NCBI GenBank assembly: GCA_963920765.1
Contig: OY987244.1
Span: 17,402,358 to 17,466,357, forward strand
DNA length: 64,000 nucleotides
Direction: 5' to 3'
Origin: Ulota crispa
Taxonomy: Eukaryota > Streptophyta > Bryopsida > Orthotrichales > Orthotrichaceae
Shown: one piece after another, positions 3,438 to 43,294 of the stretch
Numbering within the stretch: the stretch's first letter is position 1
Layout: each line of letters starts with the position of its first letter
The notes under the pieces: model-generated
The model's database searches: none
What the model saw: the letters and a program-made list of their open reading frames with translations, nothing else
Told to the model about the DNA's origin: nothing
Made by a program: the position numbers and the translations under genes

Positions 3438-6400
3438 ATGACGACGATGCTGAGGGTTTCTAGCGACATTACTGATTGCAGCCAGCATAACGAAGTCCTT
3501 CCACCTCCAAACTCTTCTATCCCGGTACCGGGCCTGGTACACAGAGGGCATCATTGCTTGGCTGAAACGTACCTAGAAAGTAGGCGATCAGCTCCGGAAT
3601 ATCGCATTCCACATTCTGCTGTGTCCATTCCGGTGAAAGACTGGAGTTCCAGCTCGGCTTTGTCCAAATCTGAGCGCAAGCCGGCATATCTGCAGACCCA
3701 GCAAACCTCGAGACCAGCTTTGAGTGCATCCCCTACTCCTGCTCGCAAGCTTAGCAGGTTCAGTACACAAAATTTTACAAGTCTTTTTGGAAACAGGTTC
3801 CAGACAGAGGCTAACGATCAGAATAGGGTGGCAACTGATCAGACATCGTATAACAAGTTTCGAACGCGATCTGCTCGTTTCGACAGGTACTAAAAGCTTC
3901 TCTATCTTCACAACAAATGTTTTGCTAGCTTGGAGAATAGGTTCTAAAAATGAACTTATTAAAACAGGTTCTACACGGTGATGCTACGAAGTTGGTTACA
4001 AATTCTGGTCTTCACTTGGACTTCTACATGCTATGAATTTAGGTTTTTCTTTCTCAAATGGCAGGATTTCCAAATGGAATTGGCGTCGAATGAATTTTCG
4101 GATTATGTACGGAAAGATGACTTAACACCATATTAGGTAAATTGGGAAAATAGTATATTTTGGGACTTTTGAAGGATTATGATGATCACCTTAATCCGAG
4201 CTCCAGCATTTTTTTGGTACATGTACCCTCACCTAAGAGGAGGAATTTGGGAGGGAAAATATCAAAATCTTAATAACTTAGACTGAATCTGATACCTTCA
4301 AATTTAGTTTAAGATAACTTTTTGGGTTTAAGGTGGAGTACAAAATGGTACCCCGTTTTTCCCAATTTAACTAATATGGTGTCACTCGCTAATATACTGT
4401 TAACTTTCCGCTTAGTACATGGAATCTCACAACAGCATAGGAGGATCCTTTGTTGCTGAAAGTGATGATAAACAAGTTTGTGGTGTACAGACAAAGTTCT
4501 ACTTTGCAGGGCCTGCAAGAGTCGGAAAGCATTTCAGCGACATCACTTCCGGACGATGAAGTCGAGGACGATGATTCTCCATCGTTTATCAAGCCTGGTC
4601 GTTACTTCGATGCTCTCCACGGTCCAGAATTGGATGAAATTCGGGTTTGTAACTGTCTACCCTGTCATTTATATTGGGTTGTACTTGGACTTTCGGTTTA
4701 GGTTAGTGACATTTTGGTTCGGTTTGTTCAAACGACAAGTAAAGAGCCGTACCTTTTTTTTAAATGATAAAGGAGAGTTTTAATTTGATTCCGTGAGAAG
4801 TTTGATTAATATTACTTACTTTTTAGGGAAAACAGAGATGAAGAGGAATGCTTGATGACGTCAAACTTATCGAAAACACTTGCATTTAATTGTCTTTACG
4901 ATCTCCATTCTCTATCCATTACAACCCTAAACCTGTACAAACTCAAGCTTTCTACGTTTCATCCAGTGGTGCACATTGGGTTTATTAGTAAGAACAGAGC
5001 TGCTACAAATTGCGATTGGCAATTTCTTACAAGTAAGCTCCTATCTAGGTTCTCCATATTGTCTCCCAAGACAAGAATCTCAATACCTCGCATTCTTGAC
5101 CAAGTGAGGAGAGAGGTGTGGAAATTTGAAGACTTACCTCAAGTCAGAGTCTTGAGAGTCCCCTCAGCTAGATGTAGCTGACGAGTTCCACGTTTGGCAC
5201 CCACGAGAATATATAGAAGCATGTCTCCTGGACGCATGAATGCAAAAATTCTAGGGAAAGTTTCATGGACACCCCTGAAGTTTGCAATATTTTCATAGAT
5301 ACCCCTGTTCAGAAATATCAAAAATATTCTTGGGCCAAAAAATTTAGGCATTTGTTTTGTTGTGCATGTCACTTCCCTTCTTCTTTTGTGCGCATGCATA
5401 ACAAGAAAGAAGTACTGTGTGCACAAAGAGAGAAGGAAGTGACATACATAACAAAAAAAACGCTTAAGAGTATTTGTGATATTTCTGAAAAAGCGGGGGT
5501 AAGTATCCATGAATATACTGCAAACTTCGGGGGGTATCCATGAAATTTTCCCAAAATTCTACGTGCCAGAAGAAACTTGCAATGCAGTGTCTATTCAATC
5601 AGTAAGGTCAATAATGAATCCTGAATGTGGAGACAGAAATCACAGTACTAGTATTATATAAGAGTTGTAATACAAATTAGGGATCATCAATTACATTGAA
5701 TGACATCTCCCACAATGTTGACATGCTTCGCAGGATCATGAAATGCTGGTGCTGCCGAAGGATGAGCTATGGCCGTTCTTGCTGCGTTTCCCATTGAACT
5801 GTTTTGGAGTATGCTTAGGCTTGGGCAGTCAGAGCATTCTCTGGAAAAATCTTCACCAGTCTCATGAGCTAAGTTTCCTGAACATTCCAAAGGAAATCAA
5901 CCTCTTTCTTTGGAGCATAGCCCTGCTGGCTCTCATCGTCATTTCCACCACGTACATCTGCAAGATTCTGTTCTACTTCGAGGCTGTGAAGCGGGAGTAC
6001 TTCCATCCAGTGCGCACCAACTTCTTCTTCGCACCGTGGATTGCAAGCATGTTTCTTGCCATAGGTAGGAACACCCATAAGCGTTATAAGTGTTCTCAAT
6101 TTCCCATAACCGTCACCTCTAAAATCTTGGAAAATCGGTAGAAGTAAATTGATGCAATTACAAGGATATATAACATGTGAATATGAAACCTTAATGTTGG
6201 AATTGGGTACAATGGCAGTTTGCTTTTTAAAAATTCATAACTTGTTCTCTTAGTATCCAAATAATACATTTGAAAGTGAAAACTCATTATTTTTTTATTG
6301 CTAACAAGATTTTATAATTTGCTAGATGTTTATTACTCCCTTTGTCCCATTATAAAGCTCCAAAAAACTTCTCCATGAGGGATTAACTGTATATTTTTAG

Positions 6401-9400
6401 TCGTTATGCTAGTGACACATGCATTCTGGAATCAATATACCACCTACCAAATGTTTGCAAAATCTCCAACTTTGATGTTGCGGTTTGGGCATCCAAATTC
6501 CATGCAAAAAAGTACCATATTTGTACATGTTGCTAGCTCCTTATTATTAATGATTTAAAGATGAGTAGCAACAATGGTACCTCATATGGGCAAGACCAAG
6601 CTTGTTAGGAGAGGAAAGCTCTCTAATAGCTTAACTTGCCCCATGAGATCATTGGACATGACAAATGCTTTCCTAGCAATTGAAATTAGCAAAAGGGAAC
6701 TTTTAGTGGGACAAGAACTATGCCTAATTTGGAGTTTTATATTGGGACAGAGGGAAACCCTTAACCCCCAAACGTCAAGGAGGACAAAAAATGTCCTTTG
6801 GCCTCCAAAAAACATTTTGTATTGCACAAAAAAGTACTTGCTCATCTGATTTTTTCGTAGAAGTGACCATAGATACATGGTACACCATGAGAAGCAAAAA
6901 TAACCTTAACTAAGGCATTCATATTTTTTGATAACCCAAATTGTGAGAAGATTCAGAACCATGGTGTTAGGTCCCATGCTACCCATTTTGCAATTTTCAT
7001 GATGGCACCAATCACACCATGCACTGTTGACATTTACAACTTTAAGCGACAATATTTTATTAGTGCACACTTGCCACAATATTGTAAATACCATTGTAGA
7101 GGGCAGGCACGGCCACCCAGCCAACGTTCAAGCGTTAAGCTAACGCTTGCTTACGGGTGTTCCTTTGCCATAGGTTTACCGCCTTCCATTGCGCATTCAG
7201 CCAATTCCGCAGTCTTCTGCTGCTGCATGAGCCCCGTCTTCATCCTGGAACTAAAGCTGTACGGCCAATGGCTCTCCGGTGGGAGCAGAAGGCTTTCCAA
7301 AGTGGCCAACCCTTCCACGCACTTGTCCATCGTGGGCAACTTTGTGGGATCGCTTCTGGCTGCCATCGTGGACTGGAAGGAGCCTGCCATCTATTTTTGG
7401 TCGGTGGGTCTGGCGCATTACCTCGTGCTCTTCGTCACGCTCTACCAACGCCTTCCTACCAACGAGAAGCTGCCCAAAGAGCTGCACCCGGTGTTCTTCC
7501 TCTTCGTGGCCGCTCCGAGCACAGCCAGTGTGGCGTGGGCGTACATCACGGGGGAGTTTGATTACGTCTCTCGTGTGGTTTTCTTCATCTCGCTCTTCTT
7601 GTACGCTTCGCTCGTTGTCCGTATCAACTTCTTCCGCGGCATCAGGTCAGTCCAATTCCTCTGCCCCTTAGTTTGCTCTGAATTATTCTCTTTTAACCCC
7701 TAAACATCAAGGAGGACAAAAAAAACATCCTCTGTTTCTAAAAAAAGATTCTGTGAGTAGTAAAATAGTCATCTTTCATCCGATTTTTTTTCAAAAGTGA
7801 CCATAAATACATGGTCCATCATGGAAGATAAAAAATTACCTCTTGAGATGTATTTATATTTTTTTTGTAACCCAAATTGTGATAAGATTCAAAAATATGG
7901 TGTTAGCTCCCAAGTTGCCCTTCTTGCAATTTTCATGAGGGCACCATTCATTGTTGACTTTTTCAACTTTTTGAAACAATACTACTAGTGCCCATGTGCA
8001 AAACACTGTAGAAATCTACAGCCAGAACAAGCCACGGTGATCCATCTGTCCTTTAAGAATTAAAGTAGTGTGCTCATAAATGAACCATCTAAGGGCTGAA
8101 ACTGAATTTTGAGAGGCAAAACTTTTGGAACTATTTTTCAGTAAATTTTCCTTGAAAGACAAGAAGAGTTGACATCTAACCCAAGTTGTTTCATATTTGC
8201 TGGAGTTTTGTGGAATTAGTTATGAAATTTTGAAGTGGAAAGGCCATAGGTCTCTAAAACCGCCCACCTCCTCAAATGTACACTACTCATACATTTTGAA
8301 AACCTATGAAAAAAAGCATGTACATCAAGGGTATATTTGAGAAGGTGGGCAGTTTTAATGTGTGGATGGTTTATAAGCAAGCTATCCCTTACTGAAATAT
8401 AAAGGGGATTGATATAACCTTTTCAACTATTCTACCACACCCCAAGGTGAATTTTAGATTTCTATCATCAAATAGTTGAATTTGAGAATTTGGTATTTAG
8501 ATTTGGACTTAGAGATCCTAATTTTGTTTAGAACCATAAAAAAAAGGTTGTAATTGAACAACACCCAATGAAAAAGCTTAGCTTGGGGGAAAAGTATTAC
8601 TTTTACTTGTGTTTATAAAAATAAAATAAAAAAGCTTTTTTAATGGATGTTGTTCAATTATGAATTTTTTTTTTATGATTCTAGACAAAATCAAGGTCTC
8701 AAGGTCTCTCAATCTACATCTTAATTCCAAATTTTTGAATTCAGCTTTTTGATGGTAGAAAACTAAAATTTACCCAAGGAGAGTGGTAGAATAGCTGAAA
8801 GGGTGTGGTACACATATCAATCCCCAAATATGAAATACCCTCGTTCTCCAGTTTCTAATTTACAAACAATTTGAACGATCTACAACACTATTCAATCTTT
8901 TGCGTGTGTACATAAGGATTTAGGAACAATATCAAAAATACTCCAGTGTTCAACAATAAAAAAACGCAATCAAAGATTTGAGAGAACTATAATATATTCT
9001 GTTTTTCCATTATTTAAAAGAATGACTCTTTGGATTCAGTTCTCTCGCACATCCTAAGCCTAATATCTTTCCAATCTCAGTCCAATGTGCTCTAGATTAT
9101 TCTTCAATTGTGGAAAATGAAAACATCCTCCTTGTACAGCTCCTTATTCAGCAACATTATCATCGTTTTTGAAGGGTTTTCGATCCCTGCATGAGTACAT
9201 ACAAATTTAGAACTTAAAAGACTAAGGGTTAAAATAAAACTAATGCAGTGAAACTTAATCAAAAAATAAAACCAAAATTTTATGAGAACGAGAGTAATCC
9301 TTTTTCTAGAAACTGTAGTAATCCAGTACTTCATAATTCGGCATTGAATTCAGTTCTCTCGCTTAAGTTACCTAATCGTTCACACTGATTTCAATGCTTG

Positions 9401-9845
9401 CAGGTTTAGCTTGTCCTGGTGGGCGTACACGTTTCCAATGACGGGAGCCGCCATAGCCTCAATCGAATACTCGCACGCTGCTCCGTCATGGATCACAAGA
9501 GTCCTGGCAATCATCCTCTCCGGGGTGGCCACCGTGACCGTGTTCGGCCTCTTCTGTGCCACGCTCCTCCACATTTTCTTGTACCGCACCATCTTCCAGA
9601 ATGACAACGCCATAGCCATCACAGCTCGTGGAGTGAGGAGGTCCTACTCCCTGCACGGGGGGACCATCCCGGAGGTTCTAACGCTGGAGAACGAGCCCCT
9701 GCACAAGGTCCTGCTCCACCACATCCATCATCTCCTTTCCAAAGATGGCTCGATACGTAACGCCCTTCTTCATGAGACTGGCACTGGCCGTGAGTCGATC
9801 TCGGCGTCCCAGAGGTCTCTGTCACCGCCGTTGGAAGACGACTGA
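3438..9845 (+). CDS. SLAH: SLAC1/SLAH-family (TehA-type) anion channel, 5 coding exons
   Basis: Plasma-membrane anion (chloride/nitrate) efflux channel of the SLAC1/SLAH family, which in plants acts in guard cells and roots. Coding exons: 3438-3886, 4491-4644, 5734-6064, 7174-7645, 9404-9845; lengths sum to 1848 nt, 615 aa. Diagnostic strings: PGRYFDALHGPELDEIR (residues 185-201), LPKDELWPFLLRFP, FYFEAVKREYFHPVR, FFFAPWIASMFLAIG, LKLYGQWLSGG, KVANPSTHLSIVGNFVG, LYQRLPTNEKLPKELHPV, WWAYTFPM. The membrane core runs from about residue 205 to 540. The N-terminal 200 residues are Ser/Thr-rich and contain FRTRSARFDR (141-150), resembling the FRTKS region that kinases phosphorylate in SLAC1/SLAH. 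Exons 1-2 are less certain: the acceptor at 4491 was picked because it keeps the frame and excludes an upstream TAG. Introns are full of MITEs, and intron 3 appears to be one (see findings). SLAC1 and SLAH2/3 type cannot be separated here. Confidence 0.93.
4125..4382. mobile_element. ACACCATATT MITE, copy 1, in intron 1 of the anion-channel gene
   Basis: Inverted termini ACACCATATTAG and CTAATATGGTGT, followed inward by TTGGGAAAA and TTTTTCCCAA. Inner segments (TTTTGGGACTTT, GGTACATGTACCCTCACC, GGTGGAGTACAAAATGGTACC) recur at 47246-47456 and 49748-49999. Confidence 0.8.
5254..5552. mobile_element. MULE-like MITE with 9-bp target duplication, copy 1
   Basis: Termini GGGAAAGTTTCATGGA and TCCATGAAATTTTCCC, with almost the whole 299 bp palindromic. 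Flanked by AAAATTCTA on both sides (5245-5253, 5553-5561), a 9-bp target duplication typical of Mutator-like elements. Lies in intron 2 of the anion-channel gene. Second copy at 14771. Confidence 0.85.
6336..6755. mobile_element. Stowaway-like MITE nested in intron 3
   Basis: Left end CTCCCTTTGTCCCATTATAAAGCTCC is close to the canonical Stowaway terminus (CTCCCTCCGTCCC), preceded by TA. The right end GGAGTTTTATATTGGGACAGAGGGA is its complement. Longer than a usual Stowaway. Confidence 0.8.
6761..7090. mobile_element. TTAACCCC-ended repeat, copy 1 (intron 3)
   Basis: Begins TTAACCCCCAAACGTCAAGG and matches 7693-8030 along about 330 bp: GGAGGACAAAAAA, GAAGTGACCATAGATACATGGT, TAACCCAAATTGTGA, TGCAATTTTCATGA. 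No complementary right terminus was found, so the right border is approximate and the copy may be truncated. Confidence 0.65.
7693..8030. mobile_element. TTAACCCC-ended repeat, copy 2 (intron 4)
   Basis: Direct-orientation copy of 6761-7090, starting TTAACCCCTAAACATCAAGG. The two copies bracket exon 4 of the anion-channel gene. Right border approximate. Confidence 0.65.
8063..8389. mobile_element. TA-flanked AGGTAGGAGGCTC MITE, copy 3, decayed ends
   Basis: Body matches the family in reverse order (CATCTAAGGGCTGAAACT, GTTTCATATTTGCTGGAG, CCCACCTCCTCAAATGTA). The termini have drifted but TA still flanks both ends. Lies in intron 4 of the anion-channel gene. Confidence 0.7.
8404..8825. mobile_element. 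GGGATTGATATG foldback MITE (Harbinger-like), copy 1
   Basis: Termini GGGGATTGATAT and ATATCAATCCCC, flanked by AAA on both sides (3-bp target duplication). The arms are palindromic through ACAACACCCAATGAAAAAGCTTAG and its complement. Other copies start at 22057, 43333 and 52714. Confidence 0.8.
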
Positions 9846-27519: not shown

Positions 27520-27833
27520 AGGTAGGAGCACCCATAAAACGTCAAACTAAGGGTTTTGAACATGATGACTATTAATAAACAACTAGCAAATAATAAGATC
27601 CTATTAGGAACAGAAAAAAAATGAGTTTGCACTTTTGAATGTATTATTTGGATACTGTGAGAATAAGTTATGAATTTTTAAAGAGCAAACTACCATTGCA
27701 ACTATAACCACTTTTAAGATTTCATGTTCACACGTTGGACATCCTTGTCATTACATCTATTCACTTCCACAGATCTCCAAGATTTCAGAGGTGATAGTTA
27801 TGGGGACACTAACGCTTATGGGTGTACATACTT
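27520..27833. mobile_element. AGGTAGGAGCACCCATAA MITE, copy
   Basis: Left AGGTAGGAGCACCCATAAA after TA; right TTATGGGTGTACATACTT before TA. Body GGGTTTTGAACATGATGACT, CTAGCAAATAATAAGATCCT and AATGTATTATTTGGATA matches 39587-39897 in reverse. Confidence 0.8.
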
Positions 27834-39586: not shown

Positions 39587-39897
39587 AGGTAGGAACACCC
39601 ATAAGCATTGGTGTCTCCATAACTGTCACTTCTGAAATCTTGAAAAATTTGTGGAAATGAATAGATGTAATTACAAGAATGTACAACGTGTGAACATGAA
39701 ATTTTAAAATGATTATGGGTGCAATGGCAGTTTGCTATTTAAAAATTCACAACTAATTCTCCCAATATCCAAATAATACATTCAAAAGTGTAAAATCATT
39801 TTTTCTGTTCCTAATAGGATCTTATAATTTGCTAGTTGTTTATTAATAGTCACCACGTTCAAAACCCTCAATTTGACGTTTATGGGTGCTCCTACCT
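39587..39897. mobile_element. AGGTAGGAACACCCATAA MITE, best-preserved copy
   Basis: Termini AGGTAGGAACACCCATAAGC and TTTATGGGTGCTCCTACCT, flanked by TA (39585-39586, 39898-39899), 311 bp. Other copies: 27520, 29427 and, interrupted, intron 3 of the anion-channel gene. Used as the reference for that intron. Confidence 0.85.
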
Positions 39898-42565: not shown

Positions 42566-43294
42566 AAGTAGCCGCATCCATAAGCGTGGAAATAAGGGTT
42601 TTGGAATAGGTAGAACAATTGACTAACTTTGAAAAAAATACTCTGAGTTAGCAAGAAGAATCTAAAAATATTGGCATCAATTTCAAGGTTCCAACTACAA
42701 GCATCTATTCACAAAGATTTTTCAAAGTCCAAAATCACTGAAAATGTAAAGCCATGTGTAAGAGATGCTAAAAACAAGGCTTGTTGGTTCTTAAATAGTG
42801 AGATGGGATACTCAAAACTTTCATGCCAATCACCCACAACCATCACTTTGTCACCCATAACCATCTCTTAGTCACCCATAACCATCTCTTAGTCACCCAT
42901 AACCATCTCGTAGTCACCCATAATCATCTCTTAGTCACCCATAACCATCTCGTAGTCACCCATAATCATCTCTTAGTCACCCATAACCATCACTTCATCA
43001 CCCATAACCATCACTTCATCACCCATAACCATCACTTCATCACCCATAACCATCACTTCATCACCCATAACCATCACTTCATCACCCATAACCATCACTT
43101 CATCACCCATAACCATCACTTCATCACCCATAACCATCACTTCATCATCCATAACCATCACTTCATCACCCATAACCATCACTTCATCACCCATAACCAA
43201 TTTTTTTAGTAATTATTAATTTGACAAGGTCAGATCAAGTTTATGGAGGCACCCTCGCTTATGGAGACACCCTCGCCTATGGGTGCGGCTACCT
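42566..43294. mobile_element. TA-flanked MITE carrying a minisatellite
   Basis: Left AAGTAGCCGCATCCATAAGCG after TA, right CGCCTATGGGTGCGGCTACCT before TA. These ends are related to the AGGTAGGAACACCCATAA family. The centre contains the 21-bp array at 42829-43206. Confidence 0.8.
42829..43206. repeat. Minisatellite, 18 units of 21 bp
   Basis: Unit CCCATAACCATCACTTCATCA or its variant CCCATAACCATCTCTTAGTCA. Read in frame, it gives 18 heptapeptides: one ITHNHHF, six VTHNHLL/VTHNHLV (partly alternating), one VTHNHHF, then a nearly homogeneous ITHNHHF block with one IIHNHHF, ending in a degenerate unit. The open frame across it is a by-product of a unit length divisible by three, not evidence for a protein. 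Confidence 0.95.

Follow-up and report, generated by a model that had tools for sequence, protein, structure and literature searches.

A SLAC1-Family Gene With a MITE in Its Third Intron

The stretch analyzed here (the window) comprises 64,000 nucleotides of the genome of Ulota crispa (Bryopsida, Orthotrichaceae; GCA_963920765.1, contig OY987244.1, positions 17,402,358 to 17,466,357 of the forward strand) and carries a gene for a SLAC1-family voltage-dependent anion channel (PF03595). The third intron of this gene extends between the ends of a miniature inverted-repeat transposable element (MITE) of a family designated A. Three exon pieces of the gene were checked and each scored above the family cut-off, with PF03595 matches in the profile search at 5734-6063 in exon 3 and at 7176-7649 at exon 4. 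The best solved chains for the protein were 7en0_A (376.5 bits), 7wnq_A (374.2 bits) and 9m7r_A (362.7 bits); as these include SLAC1 and SLAH3 chains that score alike, the protein is not clearly assignable to either type. Four exons (4510-4644, 5734-6064, 7174-7645, and 9404-9845) join into a spliced frame that stays open from exon 2 up to its stop codon. Exon 3 (5734..6064, forward strand) ends with GCC ATA G in phase 1 and exon 4 (7174..7645, forward strand) starts with GTTTACCG, both assignments being supported by the PF03595 matches and by the open spliced frame.

Intron 3 (6065..7173, forward strand) is a predicted GT-AG intron of 1109 bp in phase 1, running from GTAGGA to CCATAG, with frame and homology on both sides. 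Its borders lie within two exact copies of an 11-bp direct repeat, TTGCCATAGGT, the left one (6056..6066, forward strand) carrying the donor AG|GT and the right one (7165..7175, forward strand) the acceptor AG|GT. The initial annotation of this DNA had pointed to this repeat, and these are indeed its sole two occurrences in the window, while none of 100 shuffled versions held two. Directly inside the repeat copies stand the inverted termini of the MITE (6067-6082 and 7149-7164; 16 nt, 94% complementary), likewise as first described. Outside the MITE ends there is no other intron sequence, and both ends sit at the splice borders. When the repeat is collapsed, the codons ATG TTT CTT GCC ATA G|GT TTA CCG (M F L A I G L P, phase 1) are read without interruption, as had been claimed for F-L-A-I-G-L-P, and the same residues are found, ungapped over the joint 6064/7174, in 7en0_A, a solved SLAC1 chain. 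The restored frame is read directly from the DNA, and from it we infer that splicing takes place at this joint. The MITE inverted repeat also holds a candidate branch site, CTAAC (7140..7144, forward strand), whose A is placed 30 nt upstream of the final intron base; this motif, which resembles the branch-site consensus, could act as such in the right terminus.

Family A and the Structure of the Intronic Copy

The intronic copy of the MITE spans the intron from border to border and is interrupted by two nested elements, an arrangement that is directly visible. Its left part (6063..6335, forward strand), starting with AGGTAGGAACACCC, was aligned over 273 positions with a majority consensus built from 90 full-length family members and is 83.9% identical to it; its right end (7139..7164, forward strand), recognized by its terminus and by family comparison, lacks the usual ACCT. 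Element B (6336..6755, forward strand), with the ends CTCCCTTTGTCCCA and TGGGACAGAGGGA, which we take to be Stowaway-like, lies inside the MITE and has similar copies at the loci L066, L026, L006, and L069. Element C (6761..7138, forward strand; TTAA...TTAA) entered the MITE at CCC-TTAA, in a TTAA belonging to the latter, and is 85% identical to a copy at L130 and more weakly similar to L036 and L064. A 5-bp remnant of the MITE is left between B and C, and about 20 of its bases, judged by eye against the consensus, are absent there. The later elements B and C account for the length of 1109 bp, in agreement with the initial proposal that two later insertions enlarged the intron. As a separate observation, element C has the ends TTAACCCC and GGTTAA; intron 4 of the SLAC1-family gene holds a relative that is 73% alike, at 7693-7994, and another is nested in the family-A copy at L130.

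The 19 bases that follow the left repeat on its inner side matched 7,741 places in the 274.8-Mb genome with at most 3 mismatches (3829 forward, 3912 reverse), against 28 forward and 44 reverse matches for the reversed control pattern. With a modal length of about 314 bp (80 copies), terminal inverted repeats (TIRs) and high copy number, family A has the traits of a MITE family. An intact member at 39587..39897 (forward strand), already noted in the initial annotation, was confirmed and serves as the reference copy in the window, which holds a further copy at 27520..27833 (reverse strand). A longer, diverged element with family-A-like ends (AAGTAGCCGCATCC...) was also observed at 42566-43294. 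An assignment of family A to Stowaway was considered and rejected: its copies start with AGGTAGGAACACCC, and not with CTCCCTCC, which is presumably the start of the TIR of Stowaway, a Tc1/mariner MITE; it is the nested element B that resembles Stowaway.

The insertion habit of the family was examined in 114 distinct copies including the intronic one, counted where two ends pair within 150-1300 bp, with one-ended fragments dropped. The 113 others derive from a set with altered ends (40), a TAAG set (34), a TAGGTAGG set (28), the first search (8) and the window (3); this sample of about 3% of the family was partly chosen by pattern and is not random, so that shares among the 113 copies are not genome-wide rates. 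The family-A end reads AGGTAGGAACACCCATAAGCG and follows a dinucleotide that is usually TA. The border dinucleotides are equal in 84 of the 113 copies, namely TA/TA in 72, AA/AA in 8, and TT/TT in 4; the initial statement that other members show only TA holds for most, but not for the AA/AA and TT/TT copies. Such borders would be unusual if family A were strictly Tc1/mariner, the TT/TT copies being favored by the search pattern that drew part of the sample.

Borders of the Intronic Copy

The 11 bp around the intronic copy differ from the 2-bp, mostly TA, duplication of family A, so the view that this repeat is unusual and does not reflect the normal insertion mode of the family is upheld. The longest direct repeat lying no more than 6 bp from either edge is 11 bp in the intronic copy and at most 7 bp in the 113 others; when the flanks of the latter were shuffled into 22,600 pairings, the maximum was 10 bp. 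In the same gene, read in register, the borders of intron 2 share 2 bp and those of intron 4 share 5 bp. The two borders of the intronic copy are not alike. The left one, AT|AGGTAGGAACACCC, is an ordinary family-A end, whereas the right one reads GGGTGTTCCT|TTGCCATAGG where family A would carry ACCT and a dinucleotide. In other words, the AGGT adjoining AGGAACACCC on the left is also normal MITE sequence, and the matching ACCT is missing on the right. The part of the repeat that is not common to the MITE end, TTGCCAT, has a chance of 6e-5 by base composition. Judging from these letters, the duplication is likely longer than the 2 bp of the family, whether or not the left AGGT is MITE sequence. 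The initial assignment of the donor to the left AGGT and of the acceptor to the right copy stands insofar as AG|GT is present in both, with the qualification that the left AGGT fits the end of the element too.

Variant ends were sought elsewhere in the genome. Altered ends, in which AGGA is preceded by a base that is not T, occurred in 46 places, of which 30 loci were read: 25 were two-ended, none of them with a shared edge stretch of more than 6 bp, and 5 were without a second end; the remaining 16 places joined the sample of 114 copies where both ends were recognized. The missing left A was likewise considered as a family variant (TAGGTAGG, 46 places), and among 29 such loci, exclusive of the window copy, 25 had TTAGGT, 4 had another base, and none had the CATAGGT that the window copy shows.

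Origin of Intron 3

Based on this evidence, intron 3 was very probably created by the atypical insertion of a family-A MITE into an uninterrupted SLAC1-type exon at an AG|GT site. The central claim of the initial annotation, that the MITE made the intron, is well supported by the position of its ends at the splice borders, by the abutting 11-bp repeat and by the exact restoration of the coding sequence. The insertion site would have been TTGCCATAG|GTTTACC in an exon that we infer to have been uninterrupted, of the form TTGCCATAGGTTTACC. Duplication of 11 bp would have placed AG|GT, a known protosplice site (PMC3443670), at each end, the left one becoming the donor and the right one the acceptor, and splicing would give back the former mRNA letter for letter. 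The inverted repeat of the MITE would supply GTAGGA after the donor as well as the branch-like CTAAC, and the two further elements would have entered the intron later.

Since the family norm is a duplication of 2 bp and the right end has no ACCT, the integration appears to have been atypical: either an end-trimmed MITE may have been caught in a staggered break, or an ordinary insertion may have been changed by repair. The likeliest route seems to be that a MITE lacking the outer 4 bases at both ends was caught in a staggered break, fill-in of which produced the 11 bp; the outer AGGT would then derive from the target. Both routes leave the MITE as the source of the intron.

The left border is where another course of events has to be weighed, namely the usual 2-bp insertion, either at TA with later loss of one A or at AT, the TTGCC(A) on the right having arisen by later repair or by a chance change. 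The intron would still be MITE-made and the 11 bp would not be a target duplication, so that the odds of this alternative overlap with those of the preferred explanation; taken by itself it is possible but unlikely. AT|AGGTAGGAACACCC is after all a normal end following a dinucleotide, and the duplications of the family measure 2 bp. Moreover, a TA-duplicating insertion spliced at the AG|GT and the TAG of the element would lengthen the mRNA by one base, while the observed form adds none, and such an excess would favor the loss of one A. On the other hand, ACCT would have had to turn into an exact match of the left flank (TTGCC or TTGCCA), the chance of the 5-mer being 6e-4 by composition, and AT/AT borders were seen in none of the 113 other copies.

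A different history, in which the intron is older, the MITE landed within it and deletions then moved both MITE ends to the splice sites, is quite improbable. Introns do collect such elements, as the two more that entered intron 3 illustrate, and Brassica SLAH3 genes are described with five exons, the positions of which are not stated there (PMC8125795), so that a shared intron is conceivable. This history requires two deletions exactly at both borders in addition to a chance repeat, lacks any residue of further intron sequence beyond the MITE, and has to contend with another SLAC-type locus without an intron at that place. The genome has at least two SLAC-type loci at E ≤ 0.001 in the protein and PF03595 searches, the window gene and one on contig C5, and among these no second SLAC copy with the empty site itself was found. 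In the C5 locus the exon runs through the intron 3 position as ...LLLLLGAPTWADD..., and its end is read downstream at AGTG|GTATGG; the PF03595 match holds one TGA, which is read as lying in an intron just before the acceptor. This read-through agrees with an intron gain in the window gene and lends it modest support. It was also observed that the locus (L045, G000:C5:14047000-14056999) reads through the positions of both introns 3 and 4 of the window gene and has introns where the latter has none.

Several points speak against a gain of intron 3 through an 11-bp duplication around the MITE. The left AGGT may be the MITE's own, which cuts the informative repeat to 7-8 bp, and intron 4 of the window gene likewise has AGGT at its two borders. 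Direct repeats are common around introns: in one study all 213 introns examined had them at or close to their borders, with a mean of 11.4 bp, a similarity of 71-100% and more than 80% within 10 bp (PMC11782384), and in Drosophila repeats of at least 5 bp flank 26% of conserved and 25% of gained introns (PMC3443670). A few residues past the joint, where the solved chains have an insertion, the protein alignment has a gap of 4 residues against 7en0_A and of 3 against 7wnq_A. As the C5 paralogue is 39-49% identical and its other introns differ, its missing intron is weak evidence. Finally, the 83.9% identity of the intronic copy to the consensus compares with a median of 90.4% (range 76.7-94.9) over the 90 full-length copies; being more diverged than most, it indicates an event that is not recent.

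Relation to Known Intron Gains

One precedent is found in a review of intron gain published in Biol Direct in 2012, the authors of which we take to be Yenerall and Zhou. In it, transposon insertion at AGGT is presented as a model for the source of introns, Table 1 lists such events in Oryza, Drosophila, Oikopleura, and Zea, and 35 transposon-insertion introns are counted over four genera (PMC3443670). Intron 3 resembles this model in that a transposon lies between two AGGT copies, the duplicated target supplies both donor and acceptor, and no coding sequence is altered; the AGGT is indeed present on both sides, the left one being possibly the element's own. It differs in that its MITE family normally duplicates 2 bp and has a TIR that also ends in AGGT.

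In maize, Giroux et al. reportedly described in 1994 an intron made by Ds, a plant DNA transposon that is said to be spliced out as a new intron in a mutant allele. Ds belongs to another superfamily and makes 8-bp duplications. The likeness to intron 3, a plant DNA transposon acting as a new intron, is accompanied by differences in duplication length, in superfamily and in the reported mutant status of the allele, the intron 3 element being old by divergence. The maize case appears in the reference list of the same review (PMC3443670).

In Daphnia, gains by double-strand-break repair similarly leave short direct repeats around the insert from staggered breaks (PMC3443670), whereas the insert of intron 3 is a MITE with both TIRs, about 4 nt short at its ends if it was captured in a break. 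Introners, in turn, are nonautonomous DNA elements with TIRs, whose flanking duplication gives the splice sites (PMC9860276, PNAS 2022). These traits are shared by intron 3, which has TIRs and a duplication with splice sites from the element or the duplication. Introners differ in forming families of many similar introns in different genes, compared with 1 of 114 sampled family-A copies here. Among the land plants that it studied, the same survey reports that no introners occur (PMC9860276), a result that is left unchanged by the single case of intron 3.

A search of titles and abstracts on MITE-made or introner introns in plants, in which subscription literature is little covered, returned nothing on this gene or family. 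The kind of event is already known, plants included, and intron 3 is a new and well-preserved case. Few gained introns still show their source, the duplicated target and exact splice borders together. The case illustrates that entry at AG|GT, combined with a longer duplication, can make an element that would normally disturb the frame removable without a trace. It also offers a defined gene and site for direct comparison among related species.

Family A as a Possible Source of Further Introns

The initial annotation had compared the event with introner elements and had proposed a search for the family at exon-intron borders. The 114 copies were examined by removing the element and counting open codons on both sides, with 230 bp of flank visible (less than 123 bp in 2 of the 114 copies). 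With a limit of 40 open codons per side, the intron 3 copy passed and none of the 113 others did, so that on this evidence the comparison with introners went too far. At lower limits the others passed in 2 cases at 38 codons (L085 and L123, counted on the shorter side), 13 at 30, and 24 at 25. The latter two figures are probably due to chance; the passes at 30 codons mean that insertions into short exons could escape the 40-codon test. When eight long junction frames, including that of L123 and not that of L085, were compared with Pfam, none exceeded the cut-off; two gave matches below it (CHAT, E 1.6e-4; Cyclin_D1_bind, E 0.06) and 6 gave no match.

That family A is an introner family making introns in many genes is hard to credit and very improbable. 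Some traits would suit such a role: 150 of 226 ends carry AGGTAGGA at the left, 210 of 226 have a branch-like YTNAY close to the right end, this being a short motif that is partly expected by chance and was counted without a control, and the passes at 30 and 25 codons point in the same direction. They are opposed by the result at 40 codons and by the Pfam comparison, as well as by the fact that exact restoration through the element's own splice sites requires TAAG, and none of the 34 copies of the TAAG set reaches 40 codons. The data suggest a single intron gain, and nothing in them shows an introner family at work.

A weaker form of the idea, with family A as a latent land-plant introner of which unsampled copies or copies in short exons also became introns, is improbable as well. 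It may be considered because in either orientation the inverted repeat offers AG|GTAGGA at one end and a branch-like motif with ACCT and TA at the opposite one, which by itself amounts to a near-complete intron. If true, a latent introner would lie in land plants, the group where a wide survey found none. In a separate observation, the frame with the CHAT match below the cut-off (L032) starts at a family-A end, which may indicate a gene beside the element.

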